Shown piece by piece: positions 3,986-13,590 of a DNA stretch of 64,000 bases. The stretch lies in assembly GCA_950295325.1 (NCBI GenBank), contig OX485806.1, positions 15,374,001-15,438,000 on the forward strand, read 5' to 3'. The position numbers were made by a program, and so were the translations under genes. The stretch is from Polytrichum commune. Its lineage: Eukaryota > Streptophyta > Polytrichopsida > Polytrichales > Polytrichaceae. Positions within the stretch are counted from its first letter, which is position 1. Every line of letters starts with the position of its first letter. The notes below the pieces were generated by a model, which saw only the letters and a program-made list of their open reading frames with translations, had not been told where the DNA came from and searched no databases.

Positions 3986-4890
3986 CTACTAGGATTGTGG
4001 GTACTACAATCTACCATCCATATTACGACACTCGATTATACAACAACACGACTATATGACGCATTTCCCATCGACCAAACTTTCTAGTGTTAATTTACCT
4101 CCATACTATGACTATGACGCTTGTAATATGGCATTTGTAATATGACACTCGTAACATGACTTTTTGTTAGGTCCAATTTGTCATGCGATAAAGGTAATCA
4201 ATGTGCATAAGTAATTACACCCACATGTATTTCAAGATTCAAATGTAATTAGTACTTTGGACCATTTAAGGAAACCTTGGGGGGCAAATTCTCTAACTTC
4301 TTTTCCAAATTATGGTTTTTGTGATTAAAATCTCTGACTCACTTGCGGAGTCTTGTGGCATAATTGCACTATCACACTCCTTCTCTCATTAATTGTATGT
4401 GCCTCATCACAACTCCCACTGATCGTCTCTTTGGTTCTCACCCCAAGCTCAAGTACAATCTCCACTACTAAAGGCTATGCAGTGGAGAATTCTTTGGAGT
4501 TTTCAGTTGCAAATGTAATAAACATGCAATTTTTTTTAAAAATAAATTGAACAAGATGTTAGTTGCCAAAATCAATAGACACCATGAAAAGACAATAGAC
4601 CCTTACTGTTGTAGTGTGTGATATGGCGAAAACATCAATAGGAAACTATTTTGTTTCTATCTCCATATTGTGTGATGTTGTGAGCATATTTCTTCAAACA
4701 CAAATGTGCTTTCATACTTATGCATCTTCATCATGTGTAGAAAATGACATTTTACATAGATGTAGGCCGCTTTTCTTGAAAAACCTAAATAGTATGACAC
4801 TTGAGGCCGAAGTGTCATATTGATAAGTATCCTGCATTCAAATAACACAAACACTTTCTTGTGTGACCAAATGTGTCTTAATAAGAAGGG
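3986..4890 (+). mobile_element. Internally deleted second copy of the pogo/Tigger-like element
   Basis: Bases 4056-4210 match 1-140, and bases 4400-4885 match 1480-1950, including the end of the transposase frame (TFGVFSVANVINMQF-like stretch). About 1.2 kb containing the catalytic part is missing. The copy may start at CACTACTAGG near 3986; the ends are not defined. Confidence 0.5.
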
Positions 4891-4895
4891 AGAAC

Positions 4896-5033
4896 AATAC
4901 CACACACTTTCCATTTGATGGAGGGGTCATTGCAACATGACCCCAGTTACATGTGTCGGATTCAATCGATGATAATTGTAGATTGGACCCGACACATGTA
5001 AATGGGAAATGTGTTCTAGGCCCACGGTTTCTA
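4896..5033. mobile_element. Decayed relative of the CACTACTAG MITE
   Basis: Shares with 3759-3955 the TTCCATTT, GGTCATTGC(A/G)ACATGACCCC and AAATGGGAA(A/G)TGTGTTCTAGG stretches. Its left terminus is lost and its right terminus is altered. Confidence 0.5.
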
Positions 5034-5080
5034 CCCATCTATCGACTGGATGCCCAACAAATAGAAATATGGTATGTACA

Positions 5081-5084
<4 letters not shown>

Positions 5085-5111
<27 letters not shown>

Positions 5112-5129
5112 TATATATATATATATATA
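5085..5129. repeat. (AC)n(AT)n microsatellite
   Basis: About 12 AC units followed directly by about 10 AT units. Confidence 0.95.
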
Positions 5130-5180
5130 CGGTATCAAAAATTTGAATGTGGGGAATTCCTTTCCATGTGGGAACGGCAT

Positions 5181-5841
5181 CTATGTTCGGGGAAAACCGA
5201 CGGCTAGTTCATTATCAGCCGATGGATTTCTCCTCATGGCCGGTCCAAATTTCCAACCATCGGATGGCAATCCGACTATAATTTCAATCCTCCGGCAATT
5301 AGCCGATGGACCAGAAAATGTCCCGGAAATGTAGCCGATTCCTCTTGTGAGTTACTGGATTTCAGTCGGAAGCATCTAGAGCGTTGTTTGTCTGGAGCAT
5401 TTGATGATGCACTTGAGGAAGTACCCTAAACCTTAAACTTTTTGAATTATGCAACCTTTCCATGACCAAATCCAATTGCTTCTATGAAGAATTGGGGGAC
5501 CCTTGGCCTTCAAGCGGTGAAGGCATTGCTAGGTTCAATTCCTGCCAAGGATATTAACTCTTCAAATTTAAAGTTTTGAACATGCCTTTCTTTTCACTTA
5601 TTCAAGATTTTGTACTAAGAAATGATTTCCAATAACTTTTCATACATTTTTTAAACAATTAGTGCCGATATGAATTCCATTTAATCGGATATTGACCAAT
5701 AAAAATATGAAAATATAGGCAATTGGCCGATTGATTTTACAAAAGACCGGTTCTTGCTGATGTAAATTGGGAAAAAATCGGACCCTTCGTAGCAACTACC
5801 GGCAATTAGCCACTCAGGCTTCCAAAACTTCCCAAACTCTG
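5181..5841 (-). mobile_element. hAT-like 660-bp MITE, copy A
   Basis: Ends are CTATGTTCGGGG at the left and CCCAAACTCTG at the right. This is the inverse orientation of the copies at 7167-7828 and 42096-42755, to which it is nearly identical along its length. Its 8-bp flanks are AACGGCAT (left) and GTCTGTTG (right). They do not match each other but are the inverse complements of the two flanks of copy B. Confidence 0.85.
5501..5550 (+). other. tRNA-like stretch inside hAT MITE copy A
   Basis: A 50-base stretch begins CCTTGGC and ends GCCAAGG, a perfect 7-bp acceptor-like helix. Within it are an A-box-like CAAGCGGTGAAGGC and a B-box-like AGGTTCAATTCC. No room is left for an anticodon arm. It recurs inversely at 7459-7508 (one helix base changed) and at 42386-42435. 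It is not a functional tRNA gene; it may be a tRNA-derived relic carried by the element. Confidence 0.4.
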
Positions 5842-7166
5842 GTCTGTTGACTCTGGTGCATGGAAGTACTGTGTGGACAACTGTAGCGTTTGAGGAACAC
5901 GAGAATTTATTACCAATACAACTGTTCATCTAGTCGCACAGGATATATATCAGGCGCGGCGGGGAGGCCTTTGGCTGACGCGCATCCTTCTATATTGGTC
6001 GAGATCTGTTGCTATTTCTGGAATGTTTCCGTAAAGGAAGTCAACGTCTCGTCTTGTAATCTTCTACGCAAGGGAGGCTTGATACTTGAGTTGCCGCAAG
6101 CTAGCCATGATGAGTGCCAGCATATATAGTTACTCAATGCATCGATTGAGCAGCAGCTGTTATAAGTTATATAATTCCAAATCACAGGCGGCTGCATGCA
6201 TGATGCGGGCAGCATACTCCACTCATCTCAATACTCATAGTTATATCTTAAACTAATTACAGTTGAATGTCTTCACGAAATGCTACAATATGCAACATTT
6301 CAATTCCCAATAGTTCACTTTGTAAATGCATGCCGTCACCTGGACCCAATAGCATAATGAGATCCGACATACATCTCATGATCGTTCACCTGCCTCAGTC
6401 ATGCAGGGTTGTGGGTACGTAGCTCACTGAGCTTATTTATGAACGACTCATAGAATTAAGTTTTATCAAACCGTAGAGTGCTTCCTGCTGCTTCTGCTTT
6501 CGATGCAAACGTAATACTAAACTTGTGCAACATATGGCAGTCGTACAGTGGCTGAGCCATGCTTAAATACCACATGGAATGTATAGTTCGGCGTATTTAA
6601 GAAAGATGAATCGTGAAGCACCTTATGGTCGCCTTCAGTTCACTGTCCTTCAAAATGCTACAATAACTTGAGTACATGCATTTATATATATGCATCCTGT
6701 TACCCAGTGTCAAATGAGAGCTAAAATGATACCGAAGTATGCAGTAAATGGATCTCGCAATAATCCAATCTAGATGCTGTGCACATACTTTAAATTACTC
6801 TTTAAAACTCGAGGGTCAACTACGTACACATAACACTACAATACTGTGGATGGCAATGTGCTTTTTGAAGGTTATAACTGGGCACTGCCCGGCCGTGCCC
6901 ACATGCATGTGGTCACTCAATCCATGATACACAGGGAAACCACCTGTCCTAGTTGACCCCTCCAGAAGAGGCAAGACAAAAACCACCTCCTAAGTTCAAA
7001 CCCCAGTCTATTCTGGAGCCTCCGGAGCCGCTCCTTCGTACAACTCCAGTCTGTCCAGGGCTTGCTTGATTGCCGGTTTCCAAGTTGACCAATATATATA
7101 TTGCAGGCAGTTGAAAAAAACCTTCAACCAGGAATGACGATGTGGGGGGAGGATGATGATGCCGTT
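5842..7166. other. Segment between the inverted hAT-like copies
   Basis: 1325 bp without a convincing gene. Its orientation is probably the reverse of the ancestral state (see findings). It includes a short frame at 5890-6129 with no recognisable domain. Confidence 0.6.
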
Positions 7167-7828
7167 CAGAGTTTGGGAAGTTTTTGAAGCCTTAGTGGCT
7201 AATTGCCAGTAGTTGCTACGAAGGGTCCGATTTTTTTTCCAATTTACATCAGCAAGAGCCGGTCTTTTGTAAAATCAATCGGTCAATTGCCTATGTTTTC
7301 ATATTTTCATTGGCCAATATCCGATTAAATGGAATTCATATCGGCACTAATTGTTTAAAAAATGTATGAAAAGTTATTGGAAATCATTTCTTAGTATAAA
7401 ATCTTGAATAAGTGAAAAGAAAGGCATGTTCAAAACTTTAAATTTGAAGAGTTAATATCCTTGGTAGGAATTGAACCTAGCAATGCCTTCACCGCTTGAA
7501 GGCCAAGGGTCCCCCAATTCTTCATAGAAGCAATTGGATTTGGTCATGGAAAGGTTGCATAATTCAAAAAGTTTAAGGTTTAGGGTACTTCCTCAAGTGC
7601 ATCATCAAATGCTCCAAACAAACAACGCTCTAGATGCTTCCGACTGAAATCCAGTAACTCACAAGAGGAATCGGCTACATTTCCGGGACATTTTCTGGTC
7701 CATCGGCTAATTGCCGGAGGATTGAAATTATAGTCGGATTGCCATCCAATGGTTGGAAATTTGGACCGGCCATGAGGAGAAATCCATCGGCTGATAATGA
7801 ACTAGCCGTCGGTTTTCCCCGAACATAG
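7167..7828 (+). mobile_element. hAT-like 660-bp MITE, copy B (inverted relative to copy A)
   Basis: Starts CAGAGTTTGGG and ends CCCCGAACATAG. Its flanks are ATGCCGTT (left) and CAACAGAC (right). Together with copy A it bounds a 1325-bp segment (5842-7166). Confidence 0.85.
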
Positions 7829-9320
7829 CAACAGACTGGTGCTTTTTACCTAAATAACTATGACTACTCAATTTACTCTGGTCCTGCTGATGGAATGAGC
7901 AATTAAATGTAATTTAGAGCACAAGTTACAAGCAATAAGTAGGGTAAGGTCATAGCACATAACCTGACCATTCTTGTATCCAGATCAGTGTTTTATTCTT
8001 GGTTTTAGTGACTGCATGCTGGCTGCACAATGCAAAATGAATTATGCCATTTGACTTCTTGTTTGTAGTATCCATTTTAAAATTGACAATAGAATGAAAC
8101 TTTTTTCTCTAAACTTGGAGTTAGATTGCAAGGGGGAAATTATTATGACTGATATGTTGGCGATGACATAGGTTGCGGACATGACAATTGAGACATAGTT
8201 GGTTGTGGCCTACCAAACCACCTTGCCCCATTGGCTTTTTTAATCCATTTTTCCAAGTATTAACTGGTTCTAAAGAAAAAAGAAAAATCGCTCTATTATT
8301 TTTGGTGCAATTTGCTCTCATGGAGCTAACTGATGTTTTTCACAAAAAAAAACCCCCCAACTGACCAGACTGAAGTTTGTACACACAGCGCAAGTTTGGT
8401 TGAAAGTGATGCAGATGTTATCATGTAAACCATGCAAAGGTGACTCTAGCCTACCATAATTTGCACTTTCATTGTTGGAAATATTTCAGAGGAGCTTTTA
8501 TGGGATGCTTGTCCAAGTTGGCTATATGTTACGAGTCAGTGGATCATGGGCCAAACCTCAAAGAAATCTCAGGAGAATCAAGAGTCTCCTTAAGAAAAGC
8601 ACTAAAACTTAAGAAAAGAATCATTAGTGTAGCAGAAACTTAACAAGCAACTTCTCATGCAGAATGATGCAGCATTCTGCATGTACAATACGTACATGCA
8701 ACGTTTAATTGCTCCAGTTATCTGTTGACCTTTCAATTTTCTTAAAACATTTCAGACAGTTGTTAGTAGTACAGGAACATGAGAACGCTTTTGCTGTTGA
8801 GATTCAGGTATGTGTATAAATGCTTGAATTAAAAACAGGACATAAACTCATAATCAAGCAGCTGTTCCTAATAAATATAAGTTTGAATCAGCTTTGATGA
8901 TGGTGACTCATAAATTGCACTTTAGCAATAACTCAAGTGACTGCAGCTTGGCTTGCAGAGAAAATCTTGAGTGAATAACATCACAGCTGAAGGTTAAGTT
9001 AATTATGTGTGACATTGTTGCAAATTCATATGCGGAATGTCAGGCTCAGAAAGAGATTAGATGAGTCTGTGCTTTAGCAACAACTCGAGTGCCTGCTGGC
9101 CTTGCAGAGAAATATCAATTGAATTATGACATCATCAAAATGTACCTTACATATGAGATCTCTTTGCACGTTGATGTGCACAATGCCAGGCTTAAAAAGA
9201 GAGGAGGGCCAGATGCACAAGGGCCCACCTTATTCACAAATCTGGGCAGGGTTGTCAGCAGTGGCCGCGTCTCTCTTGCCTGATGACAACAATCTTGGGC
9301 TTGAGTATCATACCAGATGG
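7829..9320. other. No gene recognised
   Basis: Non-coding. GCAGAGAAA and CAACTCGAGTG/TAACTCAAGTG stretches recur near 8930-8970 and 9070-9115, suggesting a short diverged duplication of about 140 bp. Confidence 0.4.
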
Positions 9321-11417: not shown

Positions 11418-13590
11418 ATGGAAGCTGGGTGCCGATCATGTGTGGTAAAGGTGGCAGTTTTGGTGGCTTTGGTGTTGCAGTGCTTGTTGATGAGGTTTGC
11501 TGTTGTTGATGCTCAAGGGACTTGGCAATTGCTGCTGGGCAATGCCGGCATTGCTTCCATGCATACTGCTGTCACTCACTATGGGCCAGTGATCTTTCTG
11601 GATCGCACAGACATTGGGGCGTCTAAGATCGCTCTGCCGAATGGGAAGTGTAGGGATGACCCCAACGACCAGAGTCTGAAGCATGACTGCACTGCTCACT
11701 CGGTCATGTTCAACCCTGCATCCAACACTGTTCGCGCGTTGTTTATCCTCACTGATACGTGGTGCTCATCTGGACAGTTTTTCCCCGACGGAACTCTGGT
11801 GCAGACAGGGGGAGATTCGGATGGCAACAAGAAAATCCGAACTTTAACTCCGTGTGGAGGTGGAGGGACGTGCGACTGGGTGGAAACCACTACCCCTCTC
11901 GCTTCAGGGCGGTGGTATTCATCTAACCAGCTGCTACCCGACGGTGCACGCCAGATTGTTGTGGGTGGTCGGACGAATCCCACCTACGAGTTTGTGCCGA
12001 AAAGGTCAGCAGGAGAAGGCACATTCCCCCTGGCTCTCCTGACCAAGGGTGGAGACAATTTGTATCCGTATGTGCATCTGATGCCGGATGGCAACTTGTT
12101 CATCTTCGCCAGCAGGGACTCTGTTCTTCTCAACTGGAATACCGGTGCAATTGTGAGAAACTACCCCACCATTCCTGGCAACACCAGGAATTACCCTGCA
12201 GCTGGCTCATCGGTGTTGCTGCCCCTCACATGGCAGACTGGATTCGGCAAAGCAGAGATTCTGATTTGTGGAGGCTCCACTGCAGGAGGCCAGGCTGGTC
12301 CACCAGCGTCCACAAGCTGTGGGAGAATGGAGGCATCAGCTGCGAATGCAGCGTGGGCCATGGAGAATATGCCTGTGCGTCGCAACATGGGGGACATGAT
12401 CATTAAGCCAGACGGAGATGTTTTGATCATCAATGGAGCTCAAAACGGTGCTCAAGGATGGGGAATGGCCAGCAACCCTGCGTTGCAACCGTGCAATTAC
12501 GCAACCAACAATCCAGCAGCAAGGTTCACATTGTACACAGGGACAACCATTCCCCGAGTGTATCACTCCACTGCCAATCTGTTGCCAGATGGTCGAATCC
12601 TTTTGGCCGGAAGCAACACCCACCAATTCTACACTTTCAGTGGCACCTTCCCCACTGAGTTGCGAGTGGAGGCCTTCTCACCACCCTACCTGAGCGCCAA
12701 GTAAGCTCCTAAATAATGAATCCTCCTTATACTTTGAAGTTGATGTAACTGGTTATTTCTCTCTATTCAATTAGGCTTGCATTGATCTTATGTTGCATTT
12801 TGGGGGTCGTCCAGTGTGAGTCGGGCGAGTAAAACCCAATCTCTTATTTGCTGTCGGTTTATGGGGAGGAAACACCACTTGCACGTGAACTTGAGCCAAC
12901 ATGCGAGTTGCCTATAGTAGCGAGTAGGGGAAATGATTTCCAAGTAGGTTAGTCGCCGCAAGTAGATGCTGTGGATATTCGGGTACTATTCCAGCCTTAC
13001 GCGGCTTAAGCTCGGAGTTCATATGGTAGTGGGGTTAAGGCCTTTGGGTTTAAGCCAGCCTTTGCACTAGTGCAATCATCAGAAGTTTACATTTGAACCA
13101 TTTGCCCGGGAGAATACATCACTTTTGCTATAATGCGGATCCCTTGTTTCTATAATCCTTAGCCTATATCTCTTTGGCATGGGAGAGGTGCACTAGGGCT
13201 ATTGAATCAAGCTTTAGGGTCGGGTCTGAGCCACTACTTAATAAACTCTGAACTGGTTGTTTATGCAGCTTCAACAATCTGAAACCCAAAATTACTGGAG
13301 CTCCAGGAGGCATTGGCTATGGAAAGGTTTTCACAGTCACCTTCACAGTAGGTACCAGGCAAGGGACAGTGGTGGCTAACATGAACAGCGCTCCCTTTGT
13401 CACTCACTCTTATGCTCAAGGCCAAAGGCAACTCCAACTTCAGACTTCGGTGCCTGTTGCAGCTGGAGGTGGATGGAAAGTGCAAGTGACATCTCCCCCC
13501 AGTGGCAATGTTGCTCCTCCTCAGTATTACATGCTCTTCATCGTCCAAGCTGGCATCCCCTCAACCGCTAACTGGGTGAAACTTGCTTGA
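11418..13590 (+). CDS. Glyoxal/galactose oxidase-like secreted copper radical oxidase (GLOX-1)
   Basis: Two exons: 11418-12700 and 13269-13590, with a 568-bp intron (GTAAGC donor, TTTATGCAG acceptor, phase 2). The joined frame is 1605 nt, 534 residues. Residues 1-32 form a signal peptide with a likely cut before QGTW, followed by the glyoxal-oxidase N-terminal beta-propeller and then the DUF1929 domain, mostly in exon 2. The residues that bind copper and form the Cys-Tyr radical cofactor in this family are all visible: Cys116 (DTWCSSG), Tyr167 (GRWYSSN), Tyr382-His383 (RVYHSTAN) and His474 (VTHSYAQGQR). Family knowledge: these enzymes oxidise aldehydes or primary alcohols with O2 and release hydrogen peroxide in the apoplast; the substrate here is unknown. 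The ATG is the first in frame and lies just downstream of a TATA box. Length is normal for plant GLOX. A paralogue lies 33 kb downstream on the same strand and a pseudogene lies between them. Confidence 0.93.

Follow-up and report, generated by a model that had tools for sequence, protein, structure and literature searches.

Inversion 2z3 of Drosophila buzzatii carries copies of the transposon Galileo in opposite orientation and with exchanged target-site duplications. In the passages devoted to this arrangement, Delprat and others weigh recombination between copies against insertion of a hybrid element, two routes that are separated by the chimerism of the copies (PMC2775673). For maize, the relevant part of a study of inversions states that, after recombination between inverted copies, the two flanks of an element usually differ from each other, and that no new duplication is made (PMC8225341). 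A survey of inversions in rice reports that 888 out of 1,769 have transposons in both breakpoint regions, and that, of 100 inversions examined, 30 have inverted repeats at just one breakpoint; exchanged duplications are not mentioned in those passages of the survey (PMC10030860). Our literature search, by title or abstract opening, found no plant hAT-MITE inversion with exchanged duplications, which is no proof of absence in print.

The pair of short elements described here, termed copies A and B, appears to repeat the Drosophila Galileo pattern at small scale. The pair lies in a window of 64,000 nucleotides from the moss Polytrichum commune, i.e. the whole stretch of DNA that was analysed (C4:15374001-15438000 of a 407.8-Mb assembly in 64 contigs). 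All positions without a contig label refer to this window or, for sites such as 635C, to the element.

Arrangement of the two copies and their flanks

The preliminary description reported exchanged 8-bp flanks for copy A and the inverted copy B, and its coordinates and letters proved exact (Table 1). The two flanks of A agree with each other at 2 of 8 positions, and likewise those of B, whereas the crosswise pairs agree at 8 of 8 positions twice, i.e. at 16 of 16 bases. The description had judged a chance agreement of sixteen bases very unlikely, and the calculation bears this out, with a probability of 4^-16 per pair at uniform base use. According to our own arithmetic, random placement of the 781 copies of the family (see below) leads one to expect about three pairs within 2 kb of each other, half of them inverted. 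From the exchange of the flanks it follows that the middle segment (5842-7166) lies inverted relative to its state when the elements inserted. Turning this segment in silico brings AACGGCAT to both sides of the first element and CAACAGAC to both sides of the second.

Table 1. Features of the A-B locus; positions are those of the window
Feature	Position	Strand	Remarks
Target sequence a, 8 bp, AACGGCAT	5173-5180	+	Left of copy A; partner at the left of B, not at the right of A
Copy A, putative non-autonomous hAT-like element, 661 bp	5181-5841	+	
Portion of A with almost the same sequence as B (element positions 1-514; presumed conversion tract, right edge uncertain, about 450-515)	5181-5694	+	4 differences
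3' part of A (element positions 515-661), as unlike B as unrelated copies; rare 635C/643C haplotype at 5815 and 5823	5695-5841	+	9 differences (other pairs average 5.6)
Target sequence t, inverted form, 8 bp, GTCTGTTG	5842-5849	+	Right of A
Segment of 1,325 bp, inverted relative to the order at insertion	5842-7166	-	Basis: exchanged flanks
Target sequence a, inverted form, 8 bp, ATGCCGTT	7159-7166	-	Left of B
Copy B, 662 bp, inverted	7167-7828	-	
3' part of B, with the consensus bases of the family at 635 and 643	7167-7314	-	Over 601-661, 31 of the 75 other copies resemble B more closely than A does
Portion of B with almost the same sequence as A (element positions 1-514)	7315-7828	-	
Target sequence t, 8 bp, CAACAGAC	7829-7836	+	Right of B

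A duplication of both arms as one larger unit, which the preliminary description had held against its own reading should it be found, has left no sign, and we reject it. The inverted homology between A and B (597 nt at 98% and 70 nt at 96% identity, with 1,325 nt between the elements) ends at the ends of the elements. Among the matches scored, the middle segment has a single full-length match in the genome, namely itself, and the left and right flanking DNA likewise match only themselves at full length among the 40 scored of 646 and the 40 scored of 71 candidates, respectively.

Three of the four listed open reading frames in the 1,325-bp segment were compared with Pfam, which assigned a family to none of the three, and a search of 4000-9000 against Rfam gave no match. 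Within the inverted segment, the stretch 6470-6629 resembles nine other places, with 57-152 bases aligned at 70-86% identity; one of these places is on the same chromosome, at a distance of about 73 kb. Two interspersed repeats adjoin the locus, one at 4478-4896 (74-79% matches at many places, with 40 of 646 first-look candidates scored) and the other at 7991-8329 (67-78% matches, with 40 of 71 candidates scored). At 11418-12704 (plus strand), 3.6 kb from copy B, an open frame of 428 aa contains a Glyoxal_oxid_N domain (Pfam, E 3.1e-105).

The element family and its target-site duplications

A pattern of the 25-base core with up to 3 mismatches finds the family at 781 places in the genome (411 + 370), and its backward control at 0; 100 of these positions were listed, all of them on C1 and all with the exact core. 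Most of the copies read have the ends CTATGTTCGGGG and either CCCGAACTCTG or CCCAAACTCTG, and the two consensus ends of the family agree at 8 of their first 11 bases. Neither A nor B (661-662 bp) contains an open reading frame of at least 100 aa. The 8-bp duplication, short length, lack of a transposase gene and large number of copies mark the family, as far as can be judged from sequence, as a probable non-autonomous hAT-like element, i.e. a MITE. Terminal inverted repeats of hAT elements follow the consensus YARNG; the 3' end of the element read inward (CAGAGTTCGGG) fits it, the 5' end (CTATGTTCGGG) has T at position 2, and the relatives L049 and L039a start with CAATG, which would fit.

The copies read comprise the 38 best matches to A, a nearby inverted pair, and 40 more, namely eight carriers of rare alleles, seven new copies from a search with B, and 25 of 27 successive hits on C1 (L055-L079), the other two of which (L014 and L029) were already among the copies read. 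Five copies whose 5' end is different or missing (L042, L043, L056, L069 and L077) were left out of the comparisons, which leaves 75 full-length copies besides A and B. These five form a variant group, in which about 191-661 (in L042, 120-661) is common with the family and the 5' part is different; L042 and L043 carry the otherwise very rare allele 450C.

The flanks match in 68 of the 75 full-length copies (54 at 8/8 and 14 at 7/8, with the remaining seven at 0-5/8), and the commonest letters of the target are G-T-n-n-n-n-A-C (G1, T2, A7, C8). Three of the 27 successive C1 hits have another 5' end, and 22 of the 24 full-length ones agree at 7/8 at least, the exceptions being L014 (1/8) and L029 (5/8). 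In the nearby inverted pair among the copies read, also on C1, the copies are separated by 3.8 kb and both are normally flanked (7/8 and 8/8). An 8-bp duplication is thus normal for the family, as the preliminary description had assumed in stating that normal insertions have matched flanks, and the exchange at A and B is anomalous; set against this family norm, the exchanged flanks support its reading of the locus as an inversion.

Among the seven copies with a low match, six (all but L021) have no nearby partner in their 10-kb neighbourhoods, each of which contains one family match. L014 and L052 were tested on one side each with a degenerate pattern of the 3' end and no mismatches, which gave 9 matches. 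The one exact match to the left flank of L014, on C2, was rejected as its exchange partner, since the same 8-mer stands on both sides there, i.e. it is a normal insertion; for L052, no exact match to the side tested was found among the matches listed. L014 itself (L080; C1:7174967-7175626) is a well-preserved copy with wholly unmatched flanks (1/8). L052 (in L081, 4500-5510; C4:39360299-39361309) has a stretch of about 165-186 bp on either side of it, in direct orientation, which explains why its flanks are unmatched. It looks as if a target duplication had reached some twenty times the normal length, or as if a trace of aberrant transposition or unequal exchange had been left.

Kinship of the copies and origin of the inversion

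A and B have 13 non-consensus bases in common, while in no other of 2,926 pairs does this number exceed 7, and we therefore reject two unrelated insertions without later exchange. The two copies form a clade (tree support 0.993), and the exact patterns around 162C, 450C and 600G each match A, B and two further places, which are different each time. The plain distance between A and B is 13 substitutions and is not extreme, as other pairs come down to 9; what is informative about the pair is only its shared non-consensus bases and the split by segment.

The differences between A and B are spread unevenly along the element. We found 2 in positions 1-230, 1 in 231-430, 7 in 431-600 and 3 in 601-661, against means of 11.2, 4.4, 5.5 and 2.6 in the 2,775 other pairs. 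In element positions 1-514 the other pairs differ at 18.0 sites on average, and none of the 2,775 at as few as the four sites of A and B, whereas in the remainder of the element A and B exceed the average (Table 1). This segment analysis overturned the view of A and B as a simple sister pair. We assessed the heterogeneity with a maximum statistic, the null being one uniform A-B divergence at the mutability of the family, with the break point left free. For all 13 differences, the p-value is 0.0085 with all 75 copies (0.0062 in the first run), 0.016 with the 38 best matches as reference, and 0.0049 with the 24 full-length copies of the C1 run, or 0.0035 with the 22 that remain without L014 and L029, both of which combine a low flank match with low divergence. 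Without the indel-adjacent site 591 the values are 0.012-0.033, and without 635 and 643 they are 0.034-0.065. The mosaic signal, made up of 13 differences, is of moderate strength.

A is of the rare-subfamily type at both ends (51T, 216A, 635C, 643C) and B in the shared part only. In the alignment, 635C/643C occurs in A, L001, L002, L038 and L040, B having the consensus A/A, and its exact pattern matches four places in the genome, A included. Over 601-661, where many copies are closer to B than A is (Table 1), 9 are nearer to A than B is. The tails of A and B still have in common 600G (found in 2 of the 75 other copies), 578T (6 of 75) and 654A (17 of 75), which is more than expected for independent copies, so that the independence of the tails is not clean. 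On the plain reading, two separate copies, one of them of the rare subfamily, would have become alike over a stretch that begins near the 5' end and reaches to about 450-515, and their 3' ends would have kept their own sequence. The alignment thus gives moderate support to the view of A and B as converted copies whose original lineages are probably still visible as a mosaic, and not as a clean reciprocal chimera.

We consider it likely that two older, independent insertions at the locus were followed by gene conversion over about 0.5 kb and by a crossover that flipped 1,325 bp. One element, E1, would have inserted at AACGGCAT and another, E2, at CAACAGAC, independently, about 1.3 kb apart and in opposite orientation, each making its own 8-bp duplication. 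Later, the inverted copies would have been paired by host homologous recombination; conversion would have given both the same sequence, probably that of E2, over a tract that starts near the 5' end and extends to about 450-515, and resolution of the exchange as a crossover would have flipped the 1,325 bp between the copies. The present A would accordingly consist of the 5' end of E1 and the 3' end of E2, and the present B of the 5' end of E2 and the 3' end of E1, so that each copy would carry one flank of each original site. We infer the order of these events, the union of conversion and crossover in a single event, the donor, and the ancestral order of the segment; conversion without crossover could also have taken place as a separate, later event.

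The preliminary description, too, had placed recombination between the inverted copies before alternative transposition, and the mosaic divergence of A and B favours this choice, with moderate support. The flanks by themselves are compatible with both: in a symbolic check, the order a-E-t'...a'-E'-t results from a crossover between inverted elements as well as from a joint insertion of sister ends. In the latter, the two ends of one element act jointly although they come from different sister chromatids, the 3' end from one and the 5' end from the other; both insert at a site 1.3 kb away, so that the element is duplicated and the intervening stretch inverted in one step. Transposition involving sister chromatids is described for the hAT elements Ac/Ds in the pertinent passage of a maize study (PMC3744419), and a figure legend of the Galileo paper gives inversion as an outcome where the two copies have the same duplication (PMC2775673). 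The status of A and B as the closest-linked pair by shared alleles also agrees with such a one-step origin. The copies it produces are, however, identical at birth, and their differences should be spread evenly, which is at odds with the uneven spread observed (p 0.0035-0.065, depending on the reference set and the sites included). Moreover, since the tail of A is of the rare subfamily and that of B is not, an extra conversion of the tail of B by a third copy would be needed. We therefore disfavour this origin, and regard it as rather improbable that a natural one-step insertion on sister chromatids gave rise to the second copy as well as to the 1.3-kb inversion, the 3' end of B being later overwritten by a third member of the family.

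The age of the shared tract bears on the same choice. The 24 full-length copies of the C1 run are 8-23 substitutions away from the consensus (mean 15.4), and the reduced set of 22 copies 10-23 (mean 16.05). Terminal branches average 14.8 in these 22 copies; that of A is short (4.4) and that of B (9.7) is near the middle of all 75. In the homogenised part, A and B show 4 differences over 514 positions, i.e. about 2 per copy, whereas pairs of copies from the C1 run (24 copies) average 22.5; this places the homogenisation later than most insertions of this run. Most sampled insertions thus look older than the tract, which speaks against the one-step insertion, and a late homogenisation is easier to reconcile with host recombination than with transposition during the burst. 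Copies only 6-8 substitutions from the consensus exist, and they leave room for late activity of the family and hence for a late transposition.

Recombinational inversion could also have been preceded by a local jump, in which one copy moved over 1.3 kb and inserted in inverted orientation, a scenario that differs from the preferred recombination between two independent insertions only in the origin of the second copy. Local jumping is common among hAT elements, the alleles of A and B are found together nowhere else by exact patterns, and no pair has more non-consensus bases in common; the 3' tails, on the other hand, are as divergent as those of unrelated copies, and we hold such an origin of the second copy to be very unlikely. 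An assembly or haplotype artefact, in which the segment between the inverted arms was placed in the wrong orientation, is the least credible explanation and highly improbable, for although inverted arms (here 661 bp at 98%) can mislead short-read assembly, the whole structure of 2.7 kb is short enough to be spanned by a single long read, and an assembly of 408 Mb in 64 contigs suggests that long reads were used.

Comparison with inversions in Drosophila and maize

Galileo 2z3 and the A-B locus have in common inverted copies with exchanged duplications, and the chimerism test set out for the former was applied here to the latter (PMC2775673). As characterized in those passages, Galileo belongs to the P superfamily and makes 7-bp duplications, and its inversion is polymorphic, with uninverted chromosomes at hand (PMC2775673). 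The A-B locus, unlike that of Galileo, involves a short, apparently hAT-like element and a segment of 1.3 kb, shows no clean reciprocal chimera but a tract that was probably converted, and has an ancestral order deduced from one assembly.

The maize inversions due to reversed ends of Ac/fAc resemble A and B in being associated with hAT elements, 8-bp duplications, and an element at each breakpoint (PMC8225341). According to the same part of that study, however, reversed-ends transposition requires a pair of elements in direct orientation, creates a new duplication and entails loss of the intervening piece, whereas the exchanged pairs at A and B need no new duplication (PMC8225341). The tandem duplications attributed to reversed ends of maize dhAT-Zm13 are, like the A-B locus, natural traces of rearrangement by a non-autonomous hAT element that were read from 8-bp flanks; in the case described there, the duplications are direct and one flank is unmatched, while at A and B there is an inversion and the flanks are exchanged (PMC3744419).

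The locus offers a clean, roughly datable case of a short element serving as substrate for a small inversion together with a probable tract of gene conversion. It also indicates that exchanged duplications, combined with a family-wide alignment, can reveal such events from one assembly, with no need for a second genome. We expect that a scan of close inverted pairs of high-copy short elements could yield a rate for inversions of about a kilobase. Compared with the systems known from Drosophila and maize, the A-B inversion adds a small new example to a class of events already known.
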